Shown: positions 5,901 to 60,930 of the stretch, in pieces
Layout: every line of letters begins with the position of its first letter
How positions within the stretch are numbered: the first letter of the stretch is position 1
Position numbers and translations under genes: made by a program
Assembly (NCBI GenBank): GCA_029964075.1
Contig: CM057133.1
Location: forward strand, 14,656,699 to 14,720,698
Direction of reading: 5' to 3'
DNA: 64,000 nucleotides
Origin: Patiria pectinifera
Lineage: Eukaryota; Echinodermata; Asteroidea; Valvatida; Asterinidae
Notes under the pieces: generated by a model
What the model was told of the DNA's origin: nothing
Seen by the model: the letters and a program-made list of their open reading frames with translations, nothing else
Database searches by the model: none

Positions 5901-7942
5901 GTCTCGTGGATCTTGATGTTGCACATTGGGCATTGCTTGGACATCTGCAGATACTTCACGATGCAGCTCTTGCAAACTGCAGGAAGGCAAGACTCAAAGT
6001 TTAGATAAAACATGTTTCAGACGTCGGGGCTCAAATGGCTGGTCCTAGCTAGAGGGCCAGCTTTGGCAGCCTAGCGTCCTCTTTGTATGCCCATCTCGCA
6101 CAACCAGCTTGGAACTAAGCAGTTTTAAAGATATAGTCCATCATTTGTAATTTGTGCATTTTGTTCGTTTGAAGTAACAGAAGTGCTCAAAATCTAAAGA
6201 AGGGTACTGAACAACTAACCTGATGAAGTTTCAGCTCAGCTTCAGCTGTATATTTTCAGATAAACAGCATTCTAGGATCTCAATTTCAAATCAAAAGTTG
6301 CTGAATTTATTTTGAATTGGGCCTGAATTCAGCGTCCGAGATACGTTCTCATTGAGCCGATTGCAGCTACGCGATGTTGCGCACTGATCCGACGAGTTAT
6401 AGCAACCGCACGTTCGTGTGCGTCATGCCAATGCTTGCGCGCGCTTAGCCGAATAACAAAACGAACTAAAAATTGAAATTTCCTACGGTGCGTCTTAAGA
6501 AGCACCATTGGAAAGGCCTTCTTTCGTTGATTACTTCAAAATGACAGCTTGCCAGAAAGAATAATTTCACAGGGAGTTTAGTCCCCTTACTATCTTTCAA
6601 CCAAGTATGTTTTTCAACAATCATTACGCTAGTTACTTTTCAGATAGCTGCAAATGATGAACTATAGCTTTAAATTATAAAGTTTGCGGGTAACACCATG
6701 TGGAAAGATATCTCTTCTTGGAAGAAGTGTGGTTCTGAAAAGAACCGGTAGGTTGAGTGTAGAACTCGACGTTTCAGACAGTGTGCTGTCCATCCTCAGG
6801 ACGTCGAGTAGAAATGTTGAGTTCTACACTCAACCAACCGGTTCTTTTTAGAACCACACTTCTTCCAAGAAGAGACATCTTTCCACATGGTGTTGACCAC
6901 AAACTTTGTAATTCAAGCAGTTTTAATCATCATCCTTGTTTGGGCATTTCTCGGTGAACAAAAAATCTTAACTTGTTTTGTCACTGAATTTGATACCTCA
7001 TTTGGGAACACTGTGTAAACAATAACGAGATCACAAAGCTGAAGCTCATGAAACCCAAAAACTAAAAGTTGCACTTAGTGAGATTTTCAATGGACATTGC
7101 AACACTCAGAGCCGGCTATAACTAGCCCACATTGATCTGGCCATGCCCCATGCGTAATTGCGTCAATCAAAACGTTTATCATGGATGGAAGAGGGCCAGT
7201 ATTGGGTTCAATGCTCTATGCCTCGTGGCTGCAAATGGCTCAGCTGATCGGTTTGTCTCGGACTCTCCGTATAACGTGTGTGAGTTACCTGCCATTGTTT
7301 TGACCAGCTAGAATAAATGTCACGGGCCTTCATGTGATTGAATTCCTATGGAGCCAATTCTTGGTTCCGGGCTTTGTGCACAGAGAATGGGTAATTTAAT
7401 CTAGAACTGATTCTTCTGGAGCCGGAACCGAGCATAGCGGGCACCCAGTTCTTCAGAAGATTGGACTCGCGGTTCTGGTTCTCACATTGGAACCAGTTAG
7501 AACTGGGGAACCACTGGAACTGCCCAATACTAGTTTATATAGGAGAGTCAGGTTGGCGTAGCCGTACTTTCCTCGCCTTCCGCCGCTGTGACCCGGGTTC
7601 GAATCCCACCTGGGCCAAAATGTGGATTGGGTTTTCAGTCCCTACCTGATTCCATTGGTTTTCCTCAGAATATTCTTCTGGGCTTTTCCTCCCACCTCTA
7701 AAACTGTCACTTCTTCTCATTGTCTTCTCTACACAGGTTTCTTTAGGCTTGCGAGCTACAGTGCCTAGGGCGCTTTTGAGGAATCCTTGGTTTCATTACC
7801 AGAAATGATTAATAATAATAATTATAATATACTCACACGTATGGAGGCATTCTGTGATGGTGGTAGCATCAATGAAGTATCCTGCGCACAAGATGCAGAC
7901 GATGTTCTGGTTCAAATTTTTAATCTTCAATTTCAGCTGCGG
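2937..7942 (-). CDS. PCGF1: Polycomb group RING finger protein 1 (PCGF1), 5' exon missing
   Basis: Non-canonical PRC1 subunit: PCGF1 pairs with RING1/RNF2 for H2AK119 ubiquitylation and binds BCOR through its RAWUL domain (family knowledge). Exons in transcription order: 7942-7837, 5976-5824, 5332-5176, 4473-4332, 3504-3424, 3002-2937; all junctions are AG/GT and phases chain without conflict (705 nt, 234 aa plus stop). The RING is complete C3HC4, with '[14 protein letters not shown]', then '[10 protein letters not shown]' and '[14 protein letters not shown]', diagnostic of PCGF1 rather than PCGF2-6. Then come the linker '[14 protein letters not shown]' and RAWUL segments 'RYIRCSVRA', '[10 protein letters not shown]' and 'PMVLHY'. 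Human PCGF1 has 259 aa, so about 20-25 N-terminal residues are missing. The first coding exon must end in phase 0 upstream of 7942 and I could not find it. Introns hold two SINE-B copies and a foldback. One SINE tail abuts the donor of the 7837 exon. Confidence 0.93.
4965..5146 (-). repeat. tRNA-derived SINE family B, inverted copy
   Basis: Reverse complement of the SINE at 7541-7830. It keeps the tRNA-like B-box region ('gggtttgaatcc' in reverse), 'gtggattgggtttctgtccc' and the 'ggcttttcctcccgccac' block. The 3' tail is not recognisable. It lies in the PCGF1 intron, with its tRNA-like end about 25 bp from the donor of exon 5332-5176. Confidence 0.75.
6675..6915. repeat. Foldback repeat with hammerhead-like centre
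   Basis: Long inverted repeat: 'aacaccatgtggaaagat', 'ctcttcttggaagaagtgtg', 'gttctgaaaagaaccggt' and 'ggttgagtgtagaact' recur as reverse complements at 6822-6900. Outermost arms are 'ataaagtttg'/'caaactttgt'. The non-palindromic centre is annotated separately (6765-6808). Copies or pieces of the same family lie near 32190, 43640 and 50500. It lies in a PCGF1 intron. Non-autonomous; superfamily unresolved. Confidence 0.75.
6765..6808 (-). other. Hammerhead-ribozyme-like core in foldback repeat
   Basis: On the minus strand: an 8-bp outer helix (CTCGACGT paired with ACGTCGAG), then C, CTGAGGA, a hairpin (GGACAG/CTGTCT with one G-U) and GAAA. CUGANGA, the stem II hairpin and GAAA in this order are the conserved hammerhead core, and the T-C before CTGAGGA fits the UH cleavage pair. 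Stem I is absent, so self-cleavage is doubtful. The match is seen; function is inference. Confidence 0.4.
7541..7830 (+). repeat. tRNA-derived SINE family B, full copy
   Basis: Begins with 'gtcaggttggcgtagc' (A-box-like) and has a B box 'gggttcgaatccc'. A family-specific body follows ('gtggattgggttttcagtcc', 'ggcttttcctcccacctc', 'ttgaggaatccttggtttca'), then an AT-rich tail of 'aat/aata' units. Nearly the same sequence occurs at 34961-35245. The tail runs directly into the splice donor of the PCGF1 exon (donor at 7831-7836). Confidence 0.85.
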
Positions 7943-15083: not shown

Positions 15084-18000
15084 ATGGCTGTTGTAGTCTT
15101 CGTGACCAGTTTACTGTTGGTCACCCGTCTCGTTGGTAAGCATGCAGCACCAACCACATCGATCTTCAAATTGAAAATCATTTGGTACCAGACTTGGTTT
15201 TGTCACAAGCAGCCGAATTGGTTTGAGATTTCTCATTGATGTCGAATTCGTATCAATGGATATATCAGGCCGAGATGTACCTTAGATGCTCCAATCATGT
15301 TTTGTTACGATTTGTTCTTTCTTTTATCAAACAGATGCGGGCACCTACTGCTATGGCGACGGCCCAAAAGGTATGAGGTTTTACATTACGTGATACTTGG
15401 CTTATGATTAAGTTCACATGGGACGTATATCCCGCACCGCCGACAAGCCTTCCTATGGGACTTACTGTACAAAAGCGAAACTAGCGAGTGGAATTCACTT
15501 TATCTGCAATTTTCTCCAAAAGTATTGGGGATCAGGTCTTGGGGTTTTTCGCATCTTGTAGCTCTACTAAACAGCTTTCATCAGCATGTATAATGTGTCC
15601 GTAATATTTCATTTTGAAGGACATATTTGTTGTGATATATTAAGCGTATACCACGTAGCGCTGACAAGTCTTCCTATGGGACTAATTGAACAAAAGTGAA
15701 ACTAGCGGGTAAAATGCATCTACATGTGCAACTTTTCTCCAAAACTGTTGGGTCTTAGGAGTTGCACAAAAATAAAAGTAGCGGGTGTTCACGACGATTT
15801 GTGGGGCGCTGTGGTCCAATGGTTACGGTGTTTGACTCGTGTGCCGTGGTACACGGGTTCGAATCCTAACGGGGGGACAAGTCACTTTACTTGGGCAAGT
15901 CACTTTACCATTATTGATTCGGATGAGACGTAAAACCGTTGGTCCCGTGTGTTGTAAAAGAATCCAGTAACACTTAACTAACTTGAGAAGGGGTTTGCCC
16001 CGGTGTTTCTGGTAGTGGCTGCAAAGTACGCCGAAGCACCATTTAAACCCTTATAAAGGTGCTACATAATGGGTCTCATAATTATTTTCATCAACTCCAT
16101 TTACCTGAGTGTCTCTAAAAATATAGAAAGCGTTTTGAAACGCCCGTAGAAAGCGCTATATAAATGTAATTTATTATTGATTATGTCCGTTTGTTCTTTT
16201 ACGTCCAACAGCTAGATTTAACTAATGATGGCCGATATGTCATGTGTGAGACGGCCGATCCATTATGTCCGACGGCCGATCATGTCCGATCCATTATGTC
16301 CGACGGCCGATCATGTCCGATCCATTATGTCCGATGGCCGATTATGTCCGACGCATTTTGTCCGAAGGCCGATTGTGTCTGACCCATTATGCCCAACATT
16401 ATTCACTCATTTTGTGTCAAAAGCCTTTGATGGAAATGGTTACCTTGATCGATTGATAACAATAATTCGAGATTGGATAACTGTATCGGATGTGTACAGC
16501 AGTAAGGTTCCCCATACCCCTTGTACGAGATTCCCCATTTGCTTCTGCTGAGCGCTTGCTGGTTACACGACAGCGCACATGCATTGTCGATTTTTTCCCC
16601 ATGACTTTACCTTTCTTTCCCCCCTCAATTTCGCAAACGCTTTGACATGCTTAATTGTTAAGGTTCAATTTACCAATTATCAGCAAGTCTGCTTGTCCTG
16701 AACACATTGTTTATTTTTCTTGCTATATAGGGCCGGCCAATTGGTCAAAATTTTATTCAAGTTGCGCAGCTAAGCATCAGTCGCCTGTTGAAATAAAAGA
16801 AAACAGAGTCATCGAAGTCGATCTCGGAAATCTAACGTTCCAGGGATTTTTCAAGAAAGACAGGCCATCCAACAAAAAGTGGTTATTGTCTAACTACGGA
16901 TTGTCAAGTAAGTAGGCCTATAGTTTACACAAAGTTTCACGATTCTAATATTAGGGCGGCCTCAGGTCGACCTGCGATTTGTTTGCGCCAGGCGACGGAA
17001 CCGTCAGCATCAAGCAGAAAAGTGACGCTCGGGTCACAAAACGGAGAAATCGTGTGATTCTCGTGGAACAAAGCGGCATCTCGACACACACACAAAAATC
17101 GCAACCATGCTCACGTCACCCAAGACGCGACGACGATTCCTCGGCATATACGTGATCATGTCACGTCTTCAAAATGGCGGTGCGCATGTTCAGGTCGCAA
17201 CAAAAATTCGGCGACTGATATTTACGGTCGTAGCCCAGGCACAGCTTGATCCTGAAAAGTCAGTCGCTGACTGTTCTTTGTAGTCGCAAGGTCGACCTGA
17301 GGGCGGCCTAATAAAGCGACGTCAACCAGTCGTGGGATTACTGATGAAAAGCGTATTCATTGACAAAACATCAAATCCGGACATCAGAGCCCAATTTTGA
17401 GATCTTCTGCTTTCTCGTCACTTGGGAAAAATTACGTTGGACTAGAAAAATAACATCTTGAATGGCTTTGTGAAATTTTGATCTCCATTGCTATTTTCGA
17501 GTTTCACCTCGAAATATAGATTTTGATTTTAAAGAGCCTATTTTCTAGCAATATGCAAACAGTTATCCACTTTTGAATGAGACAACAAGCCAAACAATCC
17601 GGTCACGTTTAGTTGCCGAATAATTATTTTACAAAGTTGGAATTATTCGCATCCCAACAGTAATTCAGACTTATTTGCTGTACATTATGGGCGCAAAAGC
17701 AAGCCAAAAAAAAAGCACATTCAGAGGACAAATTTGCAAACGCATAATAGAAACGAATAGTGAAGCTCCTGAACTTCAACACCGCATGCGTGTAACGCAA
17801 CTCCATCATTACCCTGCTACACGTAATAAGAGTTGTGAGAGTTCATCAAACGGCATGGGGCTACCGGGTTGACCCACTGTTTGTTTCAGTACAGTGGCTG
17901 CAATGAACAGTGGCTTTTAGCTATTTGTTTTAATAACTCGGTCATTCCATACCCAACTCTACTCAGCCCTGCCGCTCCCTACACTACCATGCCCTGTTCC

Positions 18001-24578: not shown

Positions 24579-27500
24579 ATGGTGAGCGCTGCGCTGCGAT
24601 TGTCCTTCGTGTGTGCTGTGGTTTACCACTTGTGCTGGTTTTGGCCGCCAGGTAAGGCTTTTTTGGTATTTCTTTCTCATTTCAATTCATACCAAGTCCT
24701 GTTCTTGACACCAAGTTCACGTTTTCCGAGCCGTGCTGGTATCACAAAGTAGTCACCAATTTTTGTTTCACTACAGTTTTTTTTTGTATAATGCAATCCC
24801 GCCAAATGGTGTATACAACCCGATAGAATGACATACTTGTTAGCTCCACGGACTAACATTCCATTCGGCAAACTCATCACTCCTTCGGAAAACTCCTTCC
24901 ATTCGGCAAACTCATTGTTCCTTCAGCAAACTCATCTCTCCATTCGGCGAATTCATCACTCCATTCGGCCAACTCATTCCATTCGGCAAACTCGTCATTC
25001 GACAAACTCATCAGCCAGTCGGCAAACTCGTCATCCATTGGACAAACTCATCACTCCATTCGGCAAACCAAGCTTCGGCAAACTCATCACTCCATTCGGC
25101 GAATTCATCACTCCTTTCAAACTCATTCCATTCGGCAAACTCTTCACTCCATTCGGTGAATTCATCACTCCTTTCGGAAAACTCATTCCATTCGGCAAAC
25201 TCATCATCCATTCGGCAAACTCATCACTCCATTCGGCAAACCAGGCTTCGGCAAACTCATCATCCATTCGGCAAACTCATCACTCCTTTCAGCGAAATCA
25301 TTGCTTTCGCTTGGCAATTTCGTCACTCCGTGCTGTGAATTCGCTATTTCTTTCGGCAAAATCAGTATTTCATTGGGCGAAATCATCGTTTTATTCCGCA
25401 AAATGTTCATGCTCATTCGGCAAACTCATTCCAATCGGCAAACTCATCGTTCCTTCGGCAAACTCATCTTTCCATTCAGCGAATTCATCACCCCATTCGG
25501 TAAAGTGCAAATTCATTCCATTCGGTAAACTCGTCATTCCTTCGGCACACTCATCACTCCATTCGGTGAATTCATCACTCCTTTCTGCAAACTCATTCCT
25601 TTCGGCAAACTCGTCATTCGGCAAACTCATCATCCATTCGGCAAACTCATCACTCCTTTCGGCGAAATCATTGCTTTCGCTTGGCAATTTCGTCACTCCG
25701 TGCTGTGAATTCGTCATTTCTTTCGGCAAAATCAGTATTTCATTGGGCGAAATCATCGTTTTATTCTTTCGAATTCCCCATTTCAACCGATGAATTCATA
25801 AGTTTTAGTTGTTTCAACAATAATACAAAATGAAATGTTTGTTTTATGTACTATCGAGTGTGAAACAAATTGTGATGGTGATTTATTCGCATTCTCTCAT
25901 ACATGCGTTCAGGTAAGACAGTTATTTTGAATTTTATAGTCGGCAATCACCGTGGTAACATTGCATGCCATTGGTTACATGTTATCAGTCGCACCCGGCA
26001 CCGCCCGCCTAAAACTCAACAAATCGATCGAAAACATCCGCTAGAATGTCAACAAACTACGATTCTAGAGCTGTCACACATTAACTTCTACTTGACTTCC
26101 TTTTTACAATAATTCGATATTGACAAGATTTCCCGTAGCCCGTAGAAAGTCCAGTTTTGTGTCCAAAACATACAAATTAACGGACAGGGAAAAAGTGCCC
26201 CACTTCACTTGACTCGAGACTTAGGGAAAATGTTTTGTGAATACTGCATGAATATCAAGACTTGTCTACGCTGCATATTTAAGTGGGGTGCTTACTTTTC
26301 ATGACTTAAGTCGTTTTGTGAATACGGCCCAGGGGTCGAATTATTGTAAAACGTAGTCAATAAAAAAAAATTAAAAAAAAGTTGGAATGTGTAATTCATA
26401 ATGAGAATACTGACTGCCCTTCTTTGTATTAAGCACGTCAAAAGTCCATGTCCGTATATAAGGTCCAGTTTTTAGAGAACAAAACCACCCCTTAAACCCT
26501 CAAGTCAGTATGATATTTTAATCTTTATTTTTTTTTTTACTATCCCGTCTCACAACTCCCATATCACATTATTTCCCCAGTGGCGCGAGCATCGATAGCC
26601 ATCGAGGAACTTTGTGATCCAGTACAGATTTACTGCGCACCGAATTGTAGCGATGAATATAATGTCAGAACAGGGCAATACGTGCGCAGGCAGAATTGTC
26701 GATGCGACACCAATTGTGTTGTGTACGCTGACTGCTGCGTCGACTACCTTGACCACTGCAGCGCCAATGGGACAGACCCCTTGGCAAATCGCTACGATTT
26801 CTCGCCACATTTGGTCTGCGTTTCCCCTTACGATCCAGCCAATGAGGTCAGCTACCTGGCAGTTGGACGGTGCCCATTACAGTGGCCTATGGACGACGTC
26901 AGACAAAACTGCGAAAATGAGACATTGGCCCGCTCTCAGAGATTCCTGACGCTCCTGGTTAATGGACCCGATGATATTGTCTTCAAGAACGTCTATTGCG
27001 CTATCTGTCACCGCGTCACTGACCCGGTACCTTGGAGTCTCAGACTGTGGGACTGTGAGCCTGCGGTAGGTGAGACTATCCCGATTTATGCTGGTGGCAA
27101 GCCCAATTTGGATGCCTGCATGGGCATTCAGGCAGTTCCCCCGACATCCATGCTGAGTGAACCCCACCGCTGCTATCACGATGTCATCGACAGTTGTCCA
27201 GAAACCACCAATGCCAGCGAAACCCATATCGCGCTTTGTGCTAGTCAAACGTCCTTTTTGTTCCATCTCGCCTCTGGGGAGAGGCCGGCAGTGTATAAGA
27301 ATGTCTACTGCGTAAATTGCGCTCCTATAAAGCTAACCGGCTCCGACTTCCTCGTCTGCCATCTCGGTGGTGGTGTGTTTCACCCTGCCGTTTCATTTTT
27401 GGTCCTGTTTGACTTCACTGCGCGTTCGGTTCGTAGCAAGAATTTTCTTACCGGTTACGGGTTCCCACAGATGATTGGTGAATGCAATCTTTGGCAGCAA

Positions 27501-35834: not shown

Positions 35835-38800
35835 CTAGACATCAGCAGGTCCCGCATCCCCGCGTCCACACTCGCTAGGTTCTTCGAGCAGCGGCTCCAT
35901 CACCAAGTATGTCTGCCGCCTCGGTTGCGGGGTCATCTCCTCGGCTAATACGGCCATCTCGGCGGCCTCAACCTCGGCCCCGCTGGTGCTCGGCCGCTTG
36001 GTGGCGCTACCCTCGCTGGAGGAATGCGACTTGCTGTGGCGCGGGGTGGCGCTCCTGCTCATGCTCGGAGACGACAAGCGCGTGGAGAAGGTCAGGTTTG
36101 TCCTGTTGCGGAACCTCCGATGGCAGTTCCTGAGAGCTCGGCGAACCTGTATTGAATGTGAAACATACCTTAGATGGCATAGATGTACAACAGAATTGAA
36201 AAAGGAAATAGGCGTAGTGTATCCGAGAAATTGATTTAGTGAGGTATTAATTCGCAAATGACTTCATCGCAAAAGGGAATTTTAAACATCAAACTGCGGC
36301 ATAAGTTGAGTTTGGATTTTACCCTCACAAAATCAAGTCATAGGCCTACCCTTCACAAATTGGGACTGTTCACTAAAGATAAACAATCAAGAGCCCTGAT
36401 GTTGGTTCACCTCAGAAACACAACCGTGAGAAAGTAGGTCCTATACTGTTGTGAATGATTCAGCTGAGTACGTTCGTGACACAAAGTATACGTTACGAAT
36501 GCACTATTCAATATAGGACCTATTCCAAGATGTCAGCCCCCACATGCCAAGTTTCTCGCAACATTATTGGTGAGTCCGTTCCGTATAAAAGAACCCAAGA
36601 ATATAACATATACCATGTCCACTGCAGCACAGACTCAACATCACACCAGAGTTGTCAAATCCATCACAGGTCACATCGAGAATCAGGTCACAAGTCGAAA
36701 TACAAGTCTGGTCACAACAGAGGACAAACAAAGGAATGCCTTTATTGTAGTTCATTCCAACAGCTGTTCACTTGACGCGAGACCAGACTTGTGATTAACA
36801 TGTAATTTAGTTGTGGTGACTTGTGATTGACTTGTGATTGACTTGTGATTGGCTTGTGATTGACTTGTGATTGACTTTTGATTGGCTTGTTATGATTTTT
36901 GATCGACTTTTAGTGACTTGTGATTGACTTGTGATTTAGTCGTAATAAATTTGTGATTGACTTGAGATTGACTCGTGATTGATTTGTGATTGACTTGTGA
37001 TTGGCTTGTGATTGGCTTGTGATTGACTTGTGATTGGCTTGTGATGACTTCTGATCGACTTTTGGCGACTTGTGATTTTCTTGTGATTTATTCGTGGTGA
37101 CTGTGATTGACTTATGATGACTTGTGATTTGATTTGTGATTGTCTTGTGATTGGCTTGTGATTGGCTTGTGATTGACTTGAGATTGACTTGTGATGTGAC
37201 TTGTGATTGGCTTGTGATGTGACTTGTGATTGACTTGTGATTGGCTTGTAATATGACTTGCGATTGACTTGTGATTGGCTTGTGATTAACTTGAGATTGA
37301 CTTGTGATTAGTTTGTGATATAACTTGTGATTGACTTATGATGACCTGTGAGGACTTGACCACAACAACTCTGCATAACAGTAATGTTACCCTACCTGTT
37401 CACGTACCTCGGCATTGCAGAAGACATACAGAGTGCACACGGCCAGACCCTGGAACGAGTTGACGATGTTGCCGATCTTGCTGATTACGTACTTAACGAG
37501 GAACGGTGGGTCGAAGCTAAAGACCAGGATCGGCAACGCGTAGTAGACGCCCAGCAGGATCAGGATCACGAACGTCGACTTGGCTGCTCGCCTGCGGGGA
37601 TACAAGAGGTTATGAAATAATGAAGAAATAATCAATACATTTTATTCCATAAAATCAGTAATTTGTAATCAATATCGAGCCAATCAATATTGAGTTGGAA
37701 CAATCTAAACGTATGCTCAAATGATTATGTGAACGAGTCACATATTCAATGAATCATAGTTTCCAACTCAATATTGATTGGCAAAGAACAATAGCCAAGT
37801 TGACCTTTCATCCACTTCGCTGTACATTGGACCACATTGACATATCGTCCCTTTCAATTAACTGTCTAGTCTATATCTCTGGATGTAGGTGTCCAAAAGA
37901 GAGGGAAACAGCATTGTGTTGAGAAATGATCATTCTTTAAGCGTATATAAGTTAGTATTTAACAAAATAGGAGCTTGCATTTTTAATATTTTTTTCTCTC
38001 AATGCATCATTTTTTTGATACACACTGTAGAAAACAGTTGGTTTGTTTGCATGTCAAAGTTTGATTGAAAAACAAAGTATACGGGAAAAGTTGAGCTCAA
38101 ACTGGTCTCGAAGGAGCGTGGAAAATGTCTCAACTTCAACACTGCTTGAAATGCGAAAGTTCAACAGCTATTCTCTGACGTATTGGCGTGTTTTTGGAGG
38201 GGTTAGGGGCACACTGAGGTCCAACGTATGCGGACGAGATTGGCTCAGTGACTGGTGTAGCGCTATTATGTCACACATTGCTCTGTGAGCGTACTTTGGT
38301 GTATAAATGAACTAAATTGTGTTATACCCTGTTACATTTAATACGATCTAATACATGTATAACTTGTTAGCACAACGAATCTTTGCTGCTGGCAACCTGG
38401 GTAAGTCTAACCAGAGACATTTTTCAACGGCATAGTTCGGATAATGTCCCTTTGAACACCAGAACGAATGCAAAAATGTCTCCTCTGTACTTGCAGGATA
38501 TTAGCGACAAACCGCCACGATCCGAACCTTTTTATTCTCTGAGTAGTAGACCTGCTAGGGTCCAATGAAACAGTTAACTTTTTTAGTATAAACTTATCCC
38601 AAGGACGCGAGAATACAGACGTAGTTTGTCTATAGACCTTTATCGTGCTACCACCATTAAAGTTATATTCCCTGTATCCAATAACAGTACCGAATGACAC
38701 TGTATTTGTGCAAAAAGGAACCAGACTATTTTCCTTCCAGCCTCGCTTTGGCTACGTTAATTTGAATGGGAAAAACTGAAGATGGCTAATGGTCTATATA

Positions 38801-41800: not shown

Positions 41801-44800
41801 AGGAAAGTGACAACAAATACTTCGCGAAACTAGGAAAAATATATGGAAACTTCAGGGTCTGATGTAAGACAAGAGAACACACACATGACTGTATTAAAAG
41901 CCCACTCCTGTTTCGCGTTTAACTTCCTTAGAAATGCTAACGATCATCTTACACTTACACTTACGGTTCTGTGTATAATTTGCTTAGGTACTAGCCTCTG
42001 TGACCCCATATCCTATTTTGTTCTCTTCCAAAGTGAGAATCAAGCTCTTGAATACTGACAGGACTTCTAGCATTCACTATTTCCTGAGGGAGAGCATTCC
42101 ACACATTCATGACTTAGTGGGAGAAGAATTTCTTCCTGCAGCCAATATTCTCATTTAAAGCTGATTTGAAGATCTTCAGAGTTTGACCCTTCGTACTGGT
42201 GCTTGCCGCAGTCTTGAAGAAAGTTCTACTGTCATGGTTTTCAAATCCTTTTAACAGCTTAAAAGTTTATATAAGGTCTTTGTTCTAGGTCAAGGCCGGA
42301 CTATGGGACGTTGTTCATAAGGTGGTTTTCTCAATTCAGCTTAAATCTTGATTTCTCCGAAGCTAGGCTTGACCATAGTTTTCCATTTTTATTGTCATGT
42401 TTATGTCACGAGAACCATCAACTAGTCAACAATACTTCATGCGGTGTGGGATTTCGTATAGTATTTTTTTATGGCGCGTTCAATCCCTGACACGCAAACA
42501 GACCAAACAATATGGTTACGATAGGTACCAAGTAACTTATGTCTAAGAAACAACTGAAGAGTACGGAAATCACTCAGTAATGGTTCGTATATAAAAAAAA
42601 AAGCAAAAAAAAAATCAATAGGCCTATTGCAACTATAGCAAAGCCTCCTTGCATGAAAACCGAAAGGATGAGAAGAGTTCTGAATATGCCTACTTTTGTT
42701 TACATGTTGAACAAAATATTCGTACCTTGTCATAGTGAAGATAGCAAAAGCAGTCACGCAAGCAACGAGCGACACTCCAAATCCGATAAAGACCAGTATC
42801 TTGACAATCTACGACAAAATAACCCAACGGTTCTCATTATCAGCAGTATAGCTAAAAGGATGCTTGAAGTGGTTGTCCCTGGTTCTAGCGATCGTGGACT
42901 CGTCACTCGGCTTTTTTGGGGTGGGGTGGGGAGGGAGTAGTCTTGGAATATCTATGGAACCACTCAATTAAATGAAATTCTAAGATGATGCGATTTTTGA
43001 ACAGATTTGGGAGTATTTTGATGCTGTAATTGGGCTTACTGTATCGGCAAGGCATTCCGATGGGTCCATAGTGTGAATTTCACTCCAATGGCCTCCTTCC
43101 ATGCAGTCTCTGAAAACTTAAGACAAAAAAAGAAGAAGAACGAAGCTCAGAACGATATAAACAACGGTGAAATACTGAGAAAAAAATCAAAGGCAATCTT
43201 GTTAGTATTTAGTGTTAGGTATTCGAGCAGTAGGGCAAATAACCTTTTCCTGGAGGGACAAGGAAATCAAACAAGACGCAATTGTAACCCCGGATTCTCC
43301 ATTCTCCAACCAGGGGTCCAAACGTACCAAGTCAAAGTGCCTCAAAGAGACTGAGGTGGCTAGTATATATAGGTCTTGATTTCGATCGGATTTTCCAGAA
43401 CAAAATATTTTTACTTGGACCAAACCACGAGATCCATTGTCCGCTAACCTTGAGCACCGCATATGCTGTCTTGTAGGACGACGCCGACGGTACTTCCAGC
43501 GTAGGCTTCGGGCCACGTCAAGTTCTCGCCGGTATCCTCGGACCAGAAACTTTGGCAGTAGCTTTCTGTGTCTTCAAATTGAAGGGAAAACTATAACAAT
43601 TAACCAATTTCGTGCAAGCGTAAGAACACACGTATAAGTATGTGTGGTTCTGAAAAGAGAACTGTACGTTTCGGACAGTATGGTCTGCCCGTCGTCAGGA
43701 GACTGAGGAGGAACCACGCATACTCACAAAAGAGATTTACCACATGGTGCTACCGCCATCAACTTATCACCATGCAAACCTTCAAATCTCATCACACGTA
43801 TAACCCTTTGCTACCTATGCTTCGTTAGGCAAAAGCGCTTTCATTTGAACACCTCATCAACGCGAAGAAGGTTTAGGATTTTTATTCATGCGTTTGTTGG
43901 GGAAACATAATGATTTTCTGCTCTAAGGTCTCATGAACCTACGGCCGTAGATAGAATAATCTATAGTTGCAACAACCGGCCTCCTCTTGGCACAATATGG
44001 CTTCATGCAGGCTACAACATATCAGCGGCTTATAAAATGAACATGATTGGGAAGGCTACTCGCCCCAGTATTTACTTGGCGTCCGTTTAGTGTCCAGAAG
44101 TCAACGGCTCGCAATTTTTTCTTCTGCAGGCTTGTAAAGTCATATACCTTAATTCGTATACGTGAACAGATCACATGATTAACTATGTCATGTGATTTAA
44201 AATAACTTCATATAATTTAATTTCCAGTGCCCAAAAGCGTAGCTTTGAAATATGGGCATTTAGCACTGGTGTCTATGGGAATTTTAATACAGGGGTTCAT
44301 CCACATGGGTCGTTTTGACAGCGCCCTCTACCGGCAGCTTTGCTAAGGACCGGTATGCATGAATTATCCGAAGTGCCGCCTTGATACAAGACTAGCGTCT
44401 CTATCAACACGTTTTGATCACTCCATTAAATAATAAATGATCACGTTAACGCCTGCATAAGCTAATAGTGGAGTGGCTGCAGTTTCCATAAATTCATTGC
44501 GTGTCATCACTTCTTGAATTATTCAAAGGAAATCCGCGACTTCAATTTTCTCCATAAACGTGAAGTATCACCTTGTCAGTTGGAATATCACAATGTCTAT
44601 CACTAGGCCTAAGAAAAGTGAAGTCTTCATTGAACTAAAATAAAGGCTTGGGATTCCATTTGGTGTGTTTTTTTCTTATCAAATGATTGACAAATCTTTA
44701 CTGAATGGTTCGTGGACAACATCCTTCTGTAATCTTGATATCAACATTTCATTACTCATTTTTTGTATGAGTAAACAATTGCTTTAGTGTAATATATATA

Positions 44801-48159: not shown

Positions 48160-48858
48160 CAGCCCGATAGTCCGAAGGTTCGATAAGCCGAAGGTTCTTT
48201 TTTTCTGAAGATTCGATAGTCCGAATGCACAAAATCCCCATAAGAGGGGGTTCGTTAGTCCGAAAATGAAATTAGGTTCGTTAATCCGAACATTTGAAGC
48301 AATAGTCCAAAGGTTCATTAGTCCGAAGGTTCGGTGCGGTCCGAATTTATAGAATAAGGTTAATTAGTAGTCCGAAGGTTCAATAGTCTGAAACGAAACT
48401 ATGTTCACTTGTCCGAAGGTTCATTATTCCGAATTGAAAATAAGGTCCGATAGTCCGAATCGACAATAAGGTCCTATTGTCAATTCGGACTATCGAACCT
48501 TATTGTCCATTCGGACTATCGATTCTTAATGAGCCATTCGGACTATTGCACCATCGGACTATCGAACCTTCGGACTATCGAACCTTCGGACTATCGAACC
48601 TTCGGACTAACGAACCTTCGGACTAATGACCCTTCGGACTAAAGAACCTTCGGACTACCGAACCTTCGGACTAACGAACCTTCGGACTAATGACCCTTCG
48701 GACTAAAGAACCTTCGGACTATCGAACCTTCGGACTATTGAACCTTCGGACTAACGAACCTTCGATCTAATGAACCTTCGGACTAACGAACCTTCGGACT
48801 AATGACCCTTCGGACTAAAGAACCTTTCGGACTATCGAACCTTCGGACTATCGGGCTG
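48160..48858. repeat. Inverted tandem arrays of 'ccttcggactaNNgaa' with 22-bp ends
   Basis: Left half (48160-48475) carries scattered 'tagtccgaaggttc' units. Right half (48485-48858) has about 20 tandem 16-bp units in opposite orientation. Outer ends 'cagcccgatagtccgaagg' and 'ccttcggactatcgggctg' are exact complements. In the right half the last variable bases cycle as tcgaa, acgaa, atgac, aagaa, giving a 64-bp higher-order repeat seen three times. No coding frame. Confidence 0.9.
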
Positions 48859-48872
48859 TAACCGTCTTTTCA

Positions 48873-50514: not shown

Positions 50515-50650
50515 AAAGTCGATTTTAAATATGGGGTTGGCGGTAGAACCATAGTCAGATCTCATTTGTGACTTTGTGTGGTTCCGAACAGAACCAGTTT
50601 GGTAACCCGACGTTTCGAACAGTGTAGTCTGTACGTCTTCAGGATACAAT
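50515..50650. repeat. Foldback family fragment with hammerhead-like core
   Basis: Arm 'ggcggtagaaccat', 'tctcatttgtgac' and 'gtgtggttccgaacagaacc'. Core at 50609-50642, minus strand: CTGAAGA, a hairpin (GTACAG/CTGTTC with one mismatch), then GAAAC. The second arm is not recognisable, so it is truncated. Confidence 0.65.
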
Positions 50651-52544: not shown

Positions 52545-54068
52545 AACTAGAAATGTGTTTGTGGACAAACACGGAGCTGTTTCGACCGTTTTATTAATGA
52601 CTGCCGTAAAGGAGTTTCATCCAGGACGAATGAACATGTACATGCGTATTCTATACAAAAAGTGTCTATGCTATGTAAAAAAAACCACATTTTTTTCATG
52701 ACGTCATGATGACGGCACACATTTTTGAAATTTTCTGTATCTATCTACGACCTAACAAACCTTTTGCAAAAAAGAATTTCAAATTTACCACGTTCCATTG
52801 ATGAAATATGAGTAAAAGGTCCAAAAATTGAATAATTCATATAAAACACATGATGACATCATCGTCACGTCACTGCAATTTTTGACTATGCATGAACATA
52901 AAATCTGTCAAAGTTAGCCGGAAATCGGCTAAAACGGTCACTGTGGACAGGATTTGACCTCAGCAACACGTGCGCTGCACGCGGGCTGACTGACATACGA
53001 TATGTACAATGTACGTGCATGTACATGTACATGTAAAAGTACATACACTTCCTGTGCATGTTTTAAAGCAGAGTTATTGTCAACCTGAAGTTTTAAGCGT
53101 GCGCAGAGCATGTCCGAGTTTGCTTATTGCCTCGAAGCTTTGAAATATTTTAGACCTACCCTTAAATAAACAATTAAAGTAAAAACTAATATAAAAACTG
53201 CCATGGTTGATTTTTCAGGAATTTTCTTAGGAAAAAGGGTCTTTTATTATAACTTCCGGTCTGATGACGTCATAAGCCTTAAACTTCGCACACGTCTTAA
53301 GTGGGTCAAGGTCATCATATACACCAATATTTAGGCGATTCCGACAAACTTCGCCACAGACATCTATTCAAAATACATTTTTGAAAATTTTCAACCTGTC
53401 GCTAGAGGGCGCTCGAAGATTGCATGACGTCATCGGTAGATGATTTAAAGAATACTATTAGCCAAAGACTAACACCGTTAAAAGCAAGTTCATATCTATT
53501 ACCACTTTTAAATAATAAGCCACTTCCGGTTTTGGCCTTTTTCGACCGGAAGCAAGGGTCACGTGATTTCACGCACACTGAATGAAATAAAGACCTCAAC
53601 CTACTCTACCACTTGCCGGCAACAGAATGCTGCGGACGCGTACGGTTGATTTCTTATGCATTTTTAAATATTAAAAATGTCACAATTTAATTGCCTATAA
53701 ATAAACACCGGATGACGTCATCATGACATCATCATTACACAATGTTGTTTGAATTAGGGTCATTGCTTGGACAAAGATTGGTGTAAATGAATTACTGGCA
53801 AAGTGTCGAAAATGCCCTCTGAAAATTGACATTTTTTTTTAAATTTCTGTGTACAAAGTCTATGGGAAAAATTAAATATTCAAAATTCTATAATAAATCA
53901 AGTGATGACGTCAGCATGACGAAAAGTTTCGGCATACATCTTCAGATGATAGTTTAACTGTGTGCCAGGTTTGAAGTCGATCAGATTTGAAACAAGGCAA
54001 AAAGTGACTTGTAGAACGAAAACACGTGTTATCCTATGGGAAAAAAAGTGGAAAAAAAAAAAAAGAGA
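52545..54068 (+). repeat. Long tandem repeat unit, copy 1 (about 1.5 kb)
   Basis: Begins 'aactagaaat', then a hairpin (gtgtttgt/acaaacac, 52555-52572) and 'ggagctgttt'. From about 52890 it matches copy 2 base for base in long runs at an offset of 1339 bp ('aacataaaatctgtcaaag', 'cgctagagggcgctcgaaga'). It is rich in TGACGTCA. It ends in a purine-rich stretch. No coding frame. Confidence 0.88.
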
Positions 54069-55430
54069 AACTAGAAATTGTGGTTGTGAACAACCACAGA
54101 GCTGTTCCCAATATTGATTATCTGTTGGACCCATAGACATATAAGTAGAGATCTATGTCTGTTTGCAACAGAAGATAGGGCTTTCCGCATAATGATTTGT
54201 TTTTAACAACGTCCCTGACTATCAGTATGCATGAACATAAAATCTGTCAAAGTTAGCCGGAAATCGGCTAAAACGGTCACTGTGGACAGGATTTGACCTC
54301 AGCAACACGTGCGCTGCTCGCGGGCTGACTGACATACGATATGTACAACGTACGTGCATGTACATGTACATTGTGGACGTCCTGTGTATGTTTCAAAGCA
54401 GAGGTATTGTCAACCTGAAGTTTTAAGCGTGCGCAGGGCATGTCCGAGTTTGCTGATTGCCTCAGAGCTTTCAAATGTTTTAGACCTACCCTTTAATAGA
54501 CAATTAAAGTAAAAACTAATATAAAAACTGACATGGTTGATTTTTCAGGAATTTTCTAAGGAAAAAGGGTCTTTTCATTATAACTTCCGGTCTGATGACG
54601 TCATACACCTTAAACTTCGCACACGTCTTAAGTGGGTCAAGGTCATTATATACACCAATATTTAGACGATTCCGACAAACTTCGCCACAGACATCTATTC
54701 AAAATACATTTTTGAAAATTTTCAACCTGTCGCTAGAGGGCGCTCGAAGATTGCATGACGTCATCGGTAGATGATTTGAAGAATACTATCAGCCAAGAGA
54801 CTAACACCGTTGAAAGCAAGTTCATATCTATTACCACTTTCAAATAATAAGCCACTTCCGGTTTTGGCCTTTTTCGACCGGAAGCAAGGGTCACGTGATT
54901 TCACGCACACTGAATGAAATAAAGACCTCAACCTACTCTACCACTTGCCGGCAACAGAATGCTGCGGACGCGTACGGTTGATTTCTTATGCATTTTTTAA
55001 TATTAAAAGTGTTACTATTCAATTGCCTATAAATAAACACCGGATGACGTCATCATGACGTCATCATTACACAATGTTGTTTGAGTAAGGGTCTTTGCTT
55101 GGACAAAGATTGGTGTAAATGAATTACTAGCAAAGAGTCGAAAATGCCCTCTAAAAATTGACATTTAAAAAAAAAATTCTGTGTACAAAGTCTATGGGAA
55201 AAATTAAATATTCAAAATTCTATAATAAATCACGTGATGACGTCAGCATGACGAAAAGTTTCGGCATACATCCTCAGATGATGGTTAATAACTATGCTGA
55301 GTTTAAAGTTGATCGGATTTAAAATAATTGCCAAAGTGGCTTGTAGAATAAAAACGTGTACAAAACCTATGGGGAAAAGTGGAAAAAGAAAAAAAAAGAA
55401 AAAAAAGGAAAAAAAAAAACTTTAACGAAA
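54069..55430 (+). repeat. Long tandem repeat unit, copy 2
   Basis: Begins 'aactagaaat', then a hairpin (tgtggttg/caaccaca, 54079-54098) and 'gagctgttcccaa'. The first 160 bp differ from copy 1; the rest matches closely. It ends in an A/G-rich stretch (55380-55420) that leads into the hairpin series. Confidence 0.88.
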
Positions 55431-55435
55431 ACAAG

Positions 55436-55583
55436 AGCTGTTCCCAATTGAAATTGGGAACAGCTAAAAAAGGAAAAAAAAAAACTTTAACGAAAACAAG
55501 AGCTGTTCCCAATTGAAATTGGGAACAGCTAAAAAAAAAATAACAGAAACAAGAGCTGTTTCGGTGTGTACACCGAAACAGCT
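55436..55583. repeat. Three 30-bp hairpins with constant outer stem
   Basis: 55436-55465, 55501-55530 and 55554-55583. All start 'agctgtt' and end 'aacagct'. The inner stem is 'cccaatt' in the first two and 'tcggtgt' in the third, each perfectly paired. Each is preceded by 'acaag'. The same 'agctgtt' follows the hairpins that open the two long units upstream. Confidence 0.9.
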
Positions 55584-60460: not shown

Positions 60461-60471
60461 AAGAGTGTCCC

Positions 60472-60930
60472 CAAAACAGTTGTGCAAGCAGATATCCTTT
60501 AATTTCTCAAAAACTACTTAACTTGAGTATTTCATCGTGGAAAACTCTTGTGTATTTCCAGTAAAAATGCAATGGAAATCCGTTCATGCAAACCAGAGAT
60601 CTAATAGATTATAAAAGGGTTTTTTTCACCCGTTCCAATGGGATGGGGTTTACGCAGTTAACTTAATTAACATCAGAGTGAAAAGGTCCATGACAATCTG
60701 ATGCACTGATATCACTAACTGTGTAAATCCCCATGGGAATGGGTGGAAAAACCCATAGCCTTTTACAATCTGTTAGATCTCTGGTTTGCATGAACGGATT
60801 TCCATGGCATTTTCACTGATTATACACAAGAGTATAATTAATATGCTCCATCGAGATGAAACACTCATGTTGAGTAGTTTTTGAGAAATTAAAGGATATC
60901 TGCTTGCACAATTTTTTGGGGGACACCATG
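60472..60930. mobile_element. Tc1/mariner-like foldback MITE
   Basis: Left 'agagtgtccccaaaac' and right (reversed) 'catggtgtcccccaaaa', each next to TA (60470-60471, 60931-60932), as expected for Tc1/mariner. Arms of roughly 200 bp include 'tgtgcaagcagatatccttt' and 'tcatgcaaaccagagatct' and their complements. No transposase frame in 459 bp. Confidence 0.85.

Follow-up and report, generated by a model that had tools for sequence, protein, structure and literature searches.

Minimal type I hammerhead ribozymes of Penelope-like elements (PLEs) were described by Cervera and de la Pena (2014) and Lunse et al. (2017). According to the consulted sections of two reviews (PMC6155905, PMC7761336) these motifs lack helix III, are found in the pseudo-LTRs (pLTRs) of PLEs and are scattered in their thousands over the genomes of animals, and the section consulted in one of them calls it a mystery whether the PLE hammerhead is active in vivo and what its role is (PMC7761336). 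In PAc, the Poseidon element of Anolis, the hammerhead lies at the boundary of leader and ORF, the ORF begins at stem II, and two internal start sites of reverse transcription bound the tail, the commonest being located 111-118 nt into the ORF (PMC11167929). Once purified, the anole PLE protein was able to cut both strands and extend them, with reverse transcription beginning at internal sites; in vitro no difference in this start was observed between the strands, uncut RNA was the main substrate and hammerhead cleavage was not needed (PMC11167929). For Penelope copies of the rotifer Adineta vaga, the consulted part of the original report describes inverted pLTRs, palindromic junctions, a tail optionally present on one pLTR, target duplications of 8-10 bp and an Inr-like TCACT in the pLTR (PMC3846280).

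Here we examined a stretch of 64,000 nucleotides from Patiria pectinifera (GenBank assembly GCA_029964075.1, contig CM057133.1, positions 14,656,699 to 14,720,698; the window), in which hammerhead-like cores had been predicted at three places. We consider it probable (roughly 0.7) that all three represent dead copies of a 5' leader, or pseudo-LTR, belonging to a putative endonuclease-bearing PLE and inserted by two-ended priming on an uncut template. The window copies are probably inert at present. Overall, the feature was correctly seen, is real and is essentially known; what is new is the asymmetry of the insert ends, a histone-like hairpin in part of the family and evidence from the genome copies that argues against cut templates. 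The features are as follows.

6670..6916, minus strand: copy 1, a palindromic pair of PLE leader fragments (inverted-repeat search and relatives).
6765..6799, minus strand: hammerhead-type core of copy 1 (pattern match and family data).
6799-6771, minus strand: parts of this core, i.e., CTGAGGA 6799-6793, the extra base, stem II 6791-6776 and GAAAC 6775-6771.
6770-6765, minus strand: its cut-side parts, GTC 6770-6768 and GAG 6767-6765.
6706..6751, minus strand: hairpin like the histone 3' stem-loop, with a purine-rich stretch 3' of it (GGTTCTTTTCAGAACCACAC..CAAGAAGAGAT; RF00032, 34.5 bits, gathering threshold 34).
6835..6880, plus strand: second instance of this hairpin, in the inverted arm of copy 1 (RF00032, 33.0 bits, below gathering).
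43638..43792, minus strand: copy 2, an inverted leader pair (arms read by eye).
43668..43698, minus strand: hammerhead-type core of copy 2 (pattern match), with GTC^GAG decayed to GTACAG.
43627..43637, minus strand: target-site duplication TTATACGTGTG on the 3' side of copy 2.
43793..43803, minus strand: target-site duplication TTATACGTGTG on the 5' side of copy 2.
50535..50645, minus strand: copy 3, a single leader fragment in which no inverted arm was seen (ends approximate, by eye).
50612..50642, minus strand: hammerhead-type core of copy 3 (pattern match).
50556-50600, minus strand: histone-like hairpin of copy 3 (RF00032, 26.6 bits, below gathering).

The original prediction described CTGANGA, a hairpin and GAAAC in this order on the minus strand, 17-19 nt between the two constant words, and a hairpin that stays paired although its sequence varies, and all of this was borne out. 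The words delimit 6771-6799, 43668-43698 and 50612-50642, lie 17, 19 and 19 nt apart in copies 1, 2 and 3, and enclose 6-bp hairpins (GGACAG/CTGTCT, GGGCAG/CTGTCC and GTACAG/CTGTTC) that contain a G-U pair, a G-U pair and a T-T mismatch, respectively, each separated from CTGANGA by a single unpaired base. GTC is kept in copies 1 and 3; copy 2 has GTA, followed by CAG replacing GAG. When the cores are folded alone stem II forms in all three, with z-scores of -1.0 to -2.0, which are not decisive. Searched with the Rfam hammerhead models, the check that had been proposed, the window yielded nothing at E<=10: the threshold of the canonical hammerhead RF00163 was reached nowhere in it, nor did this search reveal a complete type I or III hammerhead as in retrozymes. 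The pattern CTGANGAN{8,25}GAAAC matches five times in the window, compared to a mean of 0.67 and a maximum of 4 in 100 dinucleotide shuffles, none of which attained five. Two of the five matches (53926 and 55258) were rejected by eye as cores, as their hairpin is not paired and their flank is unrelated; they are separated by 1332 bases and lie within a ~1.33-kb tandem duplication (52887-55523) with pieces that are 93-99% identical. Other repeats in the window are a second nested inverted repeat (60465-60926; arms of 75 and 72 nt, 91-92% complementary) and short tandem arrays at 48489-48872, 36805-37343, 24890-25766 and 16255-16409, with units of ~16, 11 and 31 bp and one mixed.

That the resemblance to a hammerhead arose by chance could be argued from these two unrelated matches and from the 613.5-Mb genome, where a loose pattern with GAAACG has 2504 matches but its reversed form still has 1229. 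However, the strict pattern that includes stem I and the cut site, CTCCTGANGA..GAAACGTCGAG, occurs 181 times in the genome versus zero times when reversed. From 100 listed of these 181 matches, a sample in which the fixed ends are demanded by the pattern and stem II is free, 56 distinct 40-mers were compared after eight rows of other length had been dropped. In these, 91.1% of the stem II cells are paired, versus at most 85.1% in 2000 column shuffles, which do not preserve relatedness among the sequences, and at most 41% in slid registers. Two-sided changes occur at four of the six pairs (pairs 1-4: G-C/A-T; G-C/A-T; A-T/T-A/C-G/G-C; C-G/T-A), and pairs 5 and 6 vary on one side. The covariation of stem II that had been asked for is, therefore, present across genome copies and, together with the counts of 181 versus zero, it supports the reading as a hammerhead-type core and refutes chance at the family level, so that coincidence is extremely improbable.

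The outcome that would have overturned the prediction, a lack of constraint or of covariation across genome copies, did not occur at the level of the family; single copies show no visible constraint. Among 101 copies selected by their tail (see below) 42 reach -36 or beyond, and CTGANGA..GAAAC is kept in 19 of these, with NUH in addition in 17; mean identity per core block in the 42 is 0.90-0.94 compared to 0.944 for the spacer, and individual copies thus decay without visible constraint. Many copies of the abundant C1 subfamily read GAAACGCTGAG, without NUH at the cut. At the family level the elements of the minimal PLE type (CTGANGA, GAAA, a paired stem II and NUH) are all present, and stem I consists of 3-bp CTC/GAG, which is imposed by the strict pattern yet is also the majority in the tail-selected set. 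Such a short stem I, like the single unpaired base that precedes stem II, may be usual for PLE hammerheads. Stem III is not found in the family. The suggestion that stem I is missing is, therefore, valid for the decayed window copies (in copy 1 the foldback arm provides CTCGACG/CGTCGAG at the place of stem III and stem I is absent) but not for the family, where helix III is the gap. Apart from the extra base before stem II and the 3-bp stem I, nothing basic distinguishes these cores from the minimal type I hammerheads as treated in the consulted sections of the reviews (PMC6155905, PMC7761336), which likewise lack helix III and reside in pLTRs. Elsewhere in the genome, a canonical type I hammerhead (RF00163, 37.8 bits) is located at L057 1501-1546 (C21:8717334-8717379), the only RF00163 match among 73 scored of 76780 genome-wide candidates. 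At L068 521-1122 (C20:4649220-4649821) a foldback centre has turned into a 99-bp tandem array of 6.1 copies with a mutated core in each, a satellite that grew out of paired PLE leaders.

A DNA search of the genome with copy 1 resulted in at least 96 matching stretches among 40 scored of 909 candidates, and many of the relatives among these scored matches are full palindromes with 73-87% identity. Relatives of 1.7 kb on contig C1 carry the same sequence at both ends, inverted, with a GIY-YIG-like frame between them; in L010, which is of this 1.7-kb type, the shared tail likewise stands inverted at both ends. A 59-aa piece of an ORF fragment of the L010 type matches PF01541 with 21.0 bits (E 4e-4), just below the Pfam cut-off of 22.6, and a GVY-N10-YIG motif can be read by eye in the frame; no PF01541 match was obtained over the whole 170-aa frame and no match to the frame in NCBIfam or PDB sequences. 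Relatives of this frame with ~58% identity sit in frames of up to 896 aa. The 1.7-kb inverted-leader relatives form a dense cluster at the contig start (C1:1-3,000,000). We tentatively assign the family to the PLEs because a minimal hammerhead without helix III, inverted leaders and a GIY-YIG-like frame are PLE marks, the first of these being known from the consulted sections of the reviews (PMC6155905, PMC7761336) and inverted pLTRs from that of the rotifer study (PMC3846280). The original prediction had mentioned PLEs among the hosts of hammerheads.

It had also held that a long inverted repeat flanks the copies and that a short foldback is a less familiar carrier. The former applies to copy 1, where arms of 106 nt (6670-6775 and 6811-6916) that are 91% complementary form a palindrome of 247 bp; the arm is shorter in copy 2 and none is present in copy 3. 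In copy 2, read by eye, the left arm has the long "tail" end and the right arm stops 8 nt past the hairpin, and the target duplication is 11 bp. An independent carrier is not supported: the foldback consists of two PLE leaders in inverted order, and the consulted part of PMC3846280 already describes pLTRs so arranged in PLEs, together with their palindromic junctions.

The ends of the inserts were studied in copies sampled by their tail, not by the hammerhead. A 26-base exact probe, which favors one subfamily and leaves out copies ending upstream of it, has 187 genome matches, of which 100 were listed and yielded the 101 tail hits in 92 loci that were analysed. With a palindrome taken as an arm score of at least 18 at a gap of less than 60 nt and a single insert as a score below 14, an inverted arm occurs within 60 nt in 61 hits (53 loci) and none in 35, the remaining five being intermediate and in neither class. 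The 3' ends are bimodal: 34 are short (36-52) and 56 long (>=60, ~33 nt further), with 11 other, the limits of these classes having been set after viewing the values. In 30 of the 53 palindromic loci both outer ends could be classed, and 29 of these are short/long, one is short/short and none is long/long, where random pairing predicts 47% mixed ends and gives 29 out of 30 a probability of 5e-9. The other 23 loci comprise 20 long/unclassed, two short/unclassed and one unclassed pair. The known PLE arrangement of inverted pLTRs with a tail on only one is thus seen in 29 of the 30; the exception, the sole short/short palindrome among the classed loci, is window copy 1, which has no clear target duplication. 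Single inserts (n = 35) have 21 long, 12 short and two other 3' ends. Duplication-like matches of at least 7 nt link the ends of 17 among 30 palindromes, where the control gives 3.3%, and of 9 among 35 single inserts, where it gives 1.7%; with the 11 bp of copy 2, they agree with the short, variable target-site duplications of PLEs. Together with the 51 distinct junctions in the 53 palindromic loci, these duplication-like ends indicate that many of the inserts are separate insertions, although junction diversity could partly reflect deletion of the centre in old palindromes.

These data bear on the idea that the foldbacks are MITE-like DNA transposons with inverted termini of their own, which gained the hammerhead by chance or capture. 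Long inverted repeats, a large number of copies and the duplication-like matches would fit such an element. However, its termini should be equal, and the outer ends are unequal in 29 of the 30 classed loci; moreover, 35 of the 101 hits lack a palindrome and are single inserts, with 3' ends of the same two classes, and the junctions are nearly all distinct. We, therefore, regard a DNA transposon as very unlikely, and the combination of one short and one long end favors two-ended reverse transcription. A different route to a palindrome was put forward for rotifer PLEs in the consulted part of PMC3846280 from their palindromic head-to-head junctions: a single cDNA, or an antisense template, would fold back and prime its own copying. 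The arms of many of our loci abut with gaps of 0-5 nt, as such self-priming would give, but a self-copied arm should stop at the end of its template, and the ends are short/long in 29 of 30 instead. Self-priming thus appears distinctly unlikely to us.

In the leader an upstream region ending in CTC is followed by the minimal hammerhead (CTC-CTGANGA-N-stem II-GAAAC-GTC^GAG, helix III absent), the histone-like hairpin and two alternative 3' ends ~33 nt apart, at which reverse transcription probably starts. The enzyme of the element would break both target strands and prime a short cDNA from each on leader RNAs, one from the near and the other from the far start site. Both cDNAs would run toward the 5' end of the RNA and be joined head to head into a foldback; if only one cDNA were made, a single leader fragment would result. 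In copy 1 an ATG (6793) occupies the position of the PAc ORF start, and the insert ends ~110-123 nt beyond it as judged by eye. Unlike PAc, for which the in vitro start sites did not differ between the strands, one start class per end is found in 29 of 30 classed palindromes, so that the rule of one short and one long end is not predicted by the in vitro work (PMC11167929).

At the other side of the inserts, 21 of the 101 5' ends fall at -46..-42 of the cut and four at -2..+2; for the singles these numbers are 8 and 3 out of 35. If ends were uniform over -60..+26, a test that leaves out eight of the 101 hits lying outside this range, the cluster would have a probability of 6e-8 (all hits) or 3e-4 (singles) and the cut window of 0.79 and 0.26. 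Copy 1 is one of the 21, falsely: its automatic 5' end (-44) is an extension into its own left arm and by eye lies near -35, an error that other palindromes may share but singles do not. A spike of 5' ends at the hammerhead cut was found neither among the 101 tail hits nor among the 35 singles, and in a run on 114 hits, some of them selected by the hammerhead, 24 ends lie at -45..-42 and two exactly at the cut. The cluster, ~10 nt 5' of CTGA, falls on an initiator-like TCACTC, similar to the Inr-like TCACT of the rotifer pLTR (consulted part of PMC3846280), and we infer that this cluster marks the RNA start. Since the ends pile up there and not at the cut, uncut RNA would be the usual template, in agreement with the in vitro report for the anole PLE (PMC11167929). 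Copies of Adineta vaga, in as far as described in the part of PMC3846280 consulted, reach an ORF; here 93 of the 101 hits end at most 60 nt upstream of the cut and represent short leaders, although inverted pLTRs, palindromic junctions, a tail optionally on one of them and short target duplications are shared.

The 5' ends are also relevant to the possibility that PLE copies of greater length, with leaders inverted as in the 1.7-kb L010 type, shrank to foldbacks by losing their centres. Palindromes are prone to loss of the centre. Long forms in which inverted leaders enclose a GIY-YIG-like frame do exist, and inverted arms 107-284 nt away were noted for three hits (L111 +, L125 and L070), the frequency of such longer forms being beyond a sample with a gap limit of <60 nt. 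Random deletion would, however, not predict 5' ends that cluster near one point, singles included (8 of 35). We consider centre deletion unlikely, though conceivable, and retain two-ended insertion of leader copies.

The hairpin downstream of the hammerhead resembles the histone mRNA 3' stem-loop (RF00032) in its 6-bp stem, UUUC loop, ACCAC-like 3' flank and the purine-rich stretch further downstream. It is unlike it in having GGUUCU/AGAACC instead of GGCUCU/AGAGCC and in its position in a retroelement leader, after a PLE hammerhead and not after a histone ORF; for PAc such a hairpin between hammerhead and start site is not mentioned (PMC11167929). Apart from the match at 6706-6751 nothing in the window reaches an Rfam threshold, and copy 2 has no RF00032 row in the window search. 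In 20 fetched loci 19 rows were obtained at E<=0.1, eight of which reach 34 bits (up to 39.3) and 11 lie at 22.0-33.9; seven of the 20 have no row, including leaders of two subfamilies (L016, L018 and L077; L021 and L022). The leader hairpins thus attain at most 39.3 bits versus 41.7 and 41.1 for stem-loops adjoining two core-histone (PF00125) genes of the same genome. GGYYCTTTTCAGRRCCAC occurs 1509 times in the genome, and at 562 places GGYTCTTYTCAGARCCAC stands 6-36 nt after GAAACG; the reversed form of either pattern has zero matches. The hairpin stretch folds with a z of -2.95. In the stem no covariation was seen and, consequently, descent accounts for its constancy as well as function does. 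The end of copy 2, 8 nt past the hairpin, is similar to a histone-type 3' end, in this one case, and AAAAGAGAU in the leader presumably resembles a U7 target. Five GGCTCT stem-loops on C1 were rejected as leader hairpins: they are missing from the list of GAAACG followed by GGYTCTTYTCAGARCCAC, which covers C1, and, therefore, do not follow a hammerhead of the PLE-leader kind. Rows of miRNA families in the window and the fetched loci were all below gathering and were taken as artefacts of the palindromes. Histone stem-loops of identical score (42.3 bits, E 8.8e-9) make up 28 of 75 genome rows on many contigs, four of them on C1, where no core-histone match is listed, and a series spaced by 1.6 kb lies at C21:8589018-8618152, where no PF00125 match is listed either; these could represent other histone types or another mobile element.

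Our literature search revealed no publication joining Penelope elements and the histone stem-loop, nor one joining retrotransposon, histone stem-loop and SLBP. Speculatively, a PLE lineage may have evolved a mimic of histone pre-mRNA 3' processing 3' of its hammerhead, using SLBP/U7 for making or protecting a non-polyadenylated RNA or for coupling to S phase, while each start of reverse transcription would be used on one side of the break and the foldback would be the fossil of a two-ended insertion; we consider this full scenario improbable. If functional, the histone-like hairpin would tie a retroelement into the pathway that histone mRNAs use. The leader-only foldbacks form a genomic record of template ends, and they argue for uncut RNA as the usual template and for insertion from two ends whose start sites are unequal.
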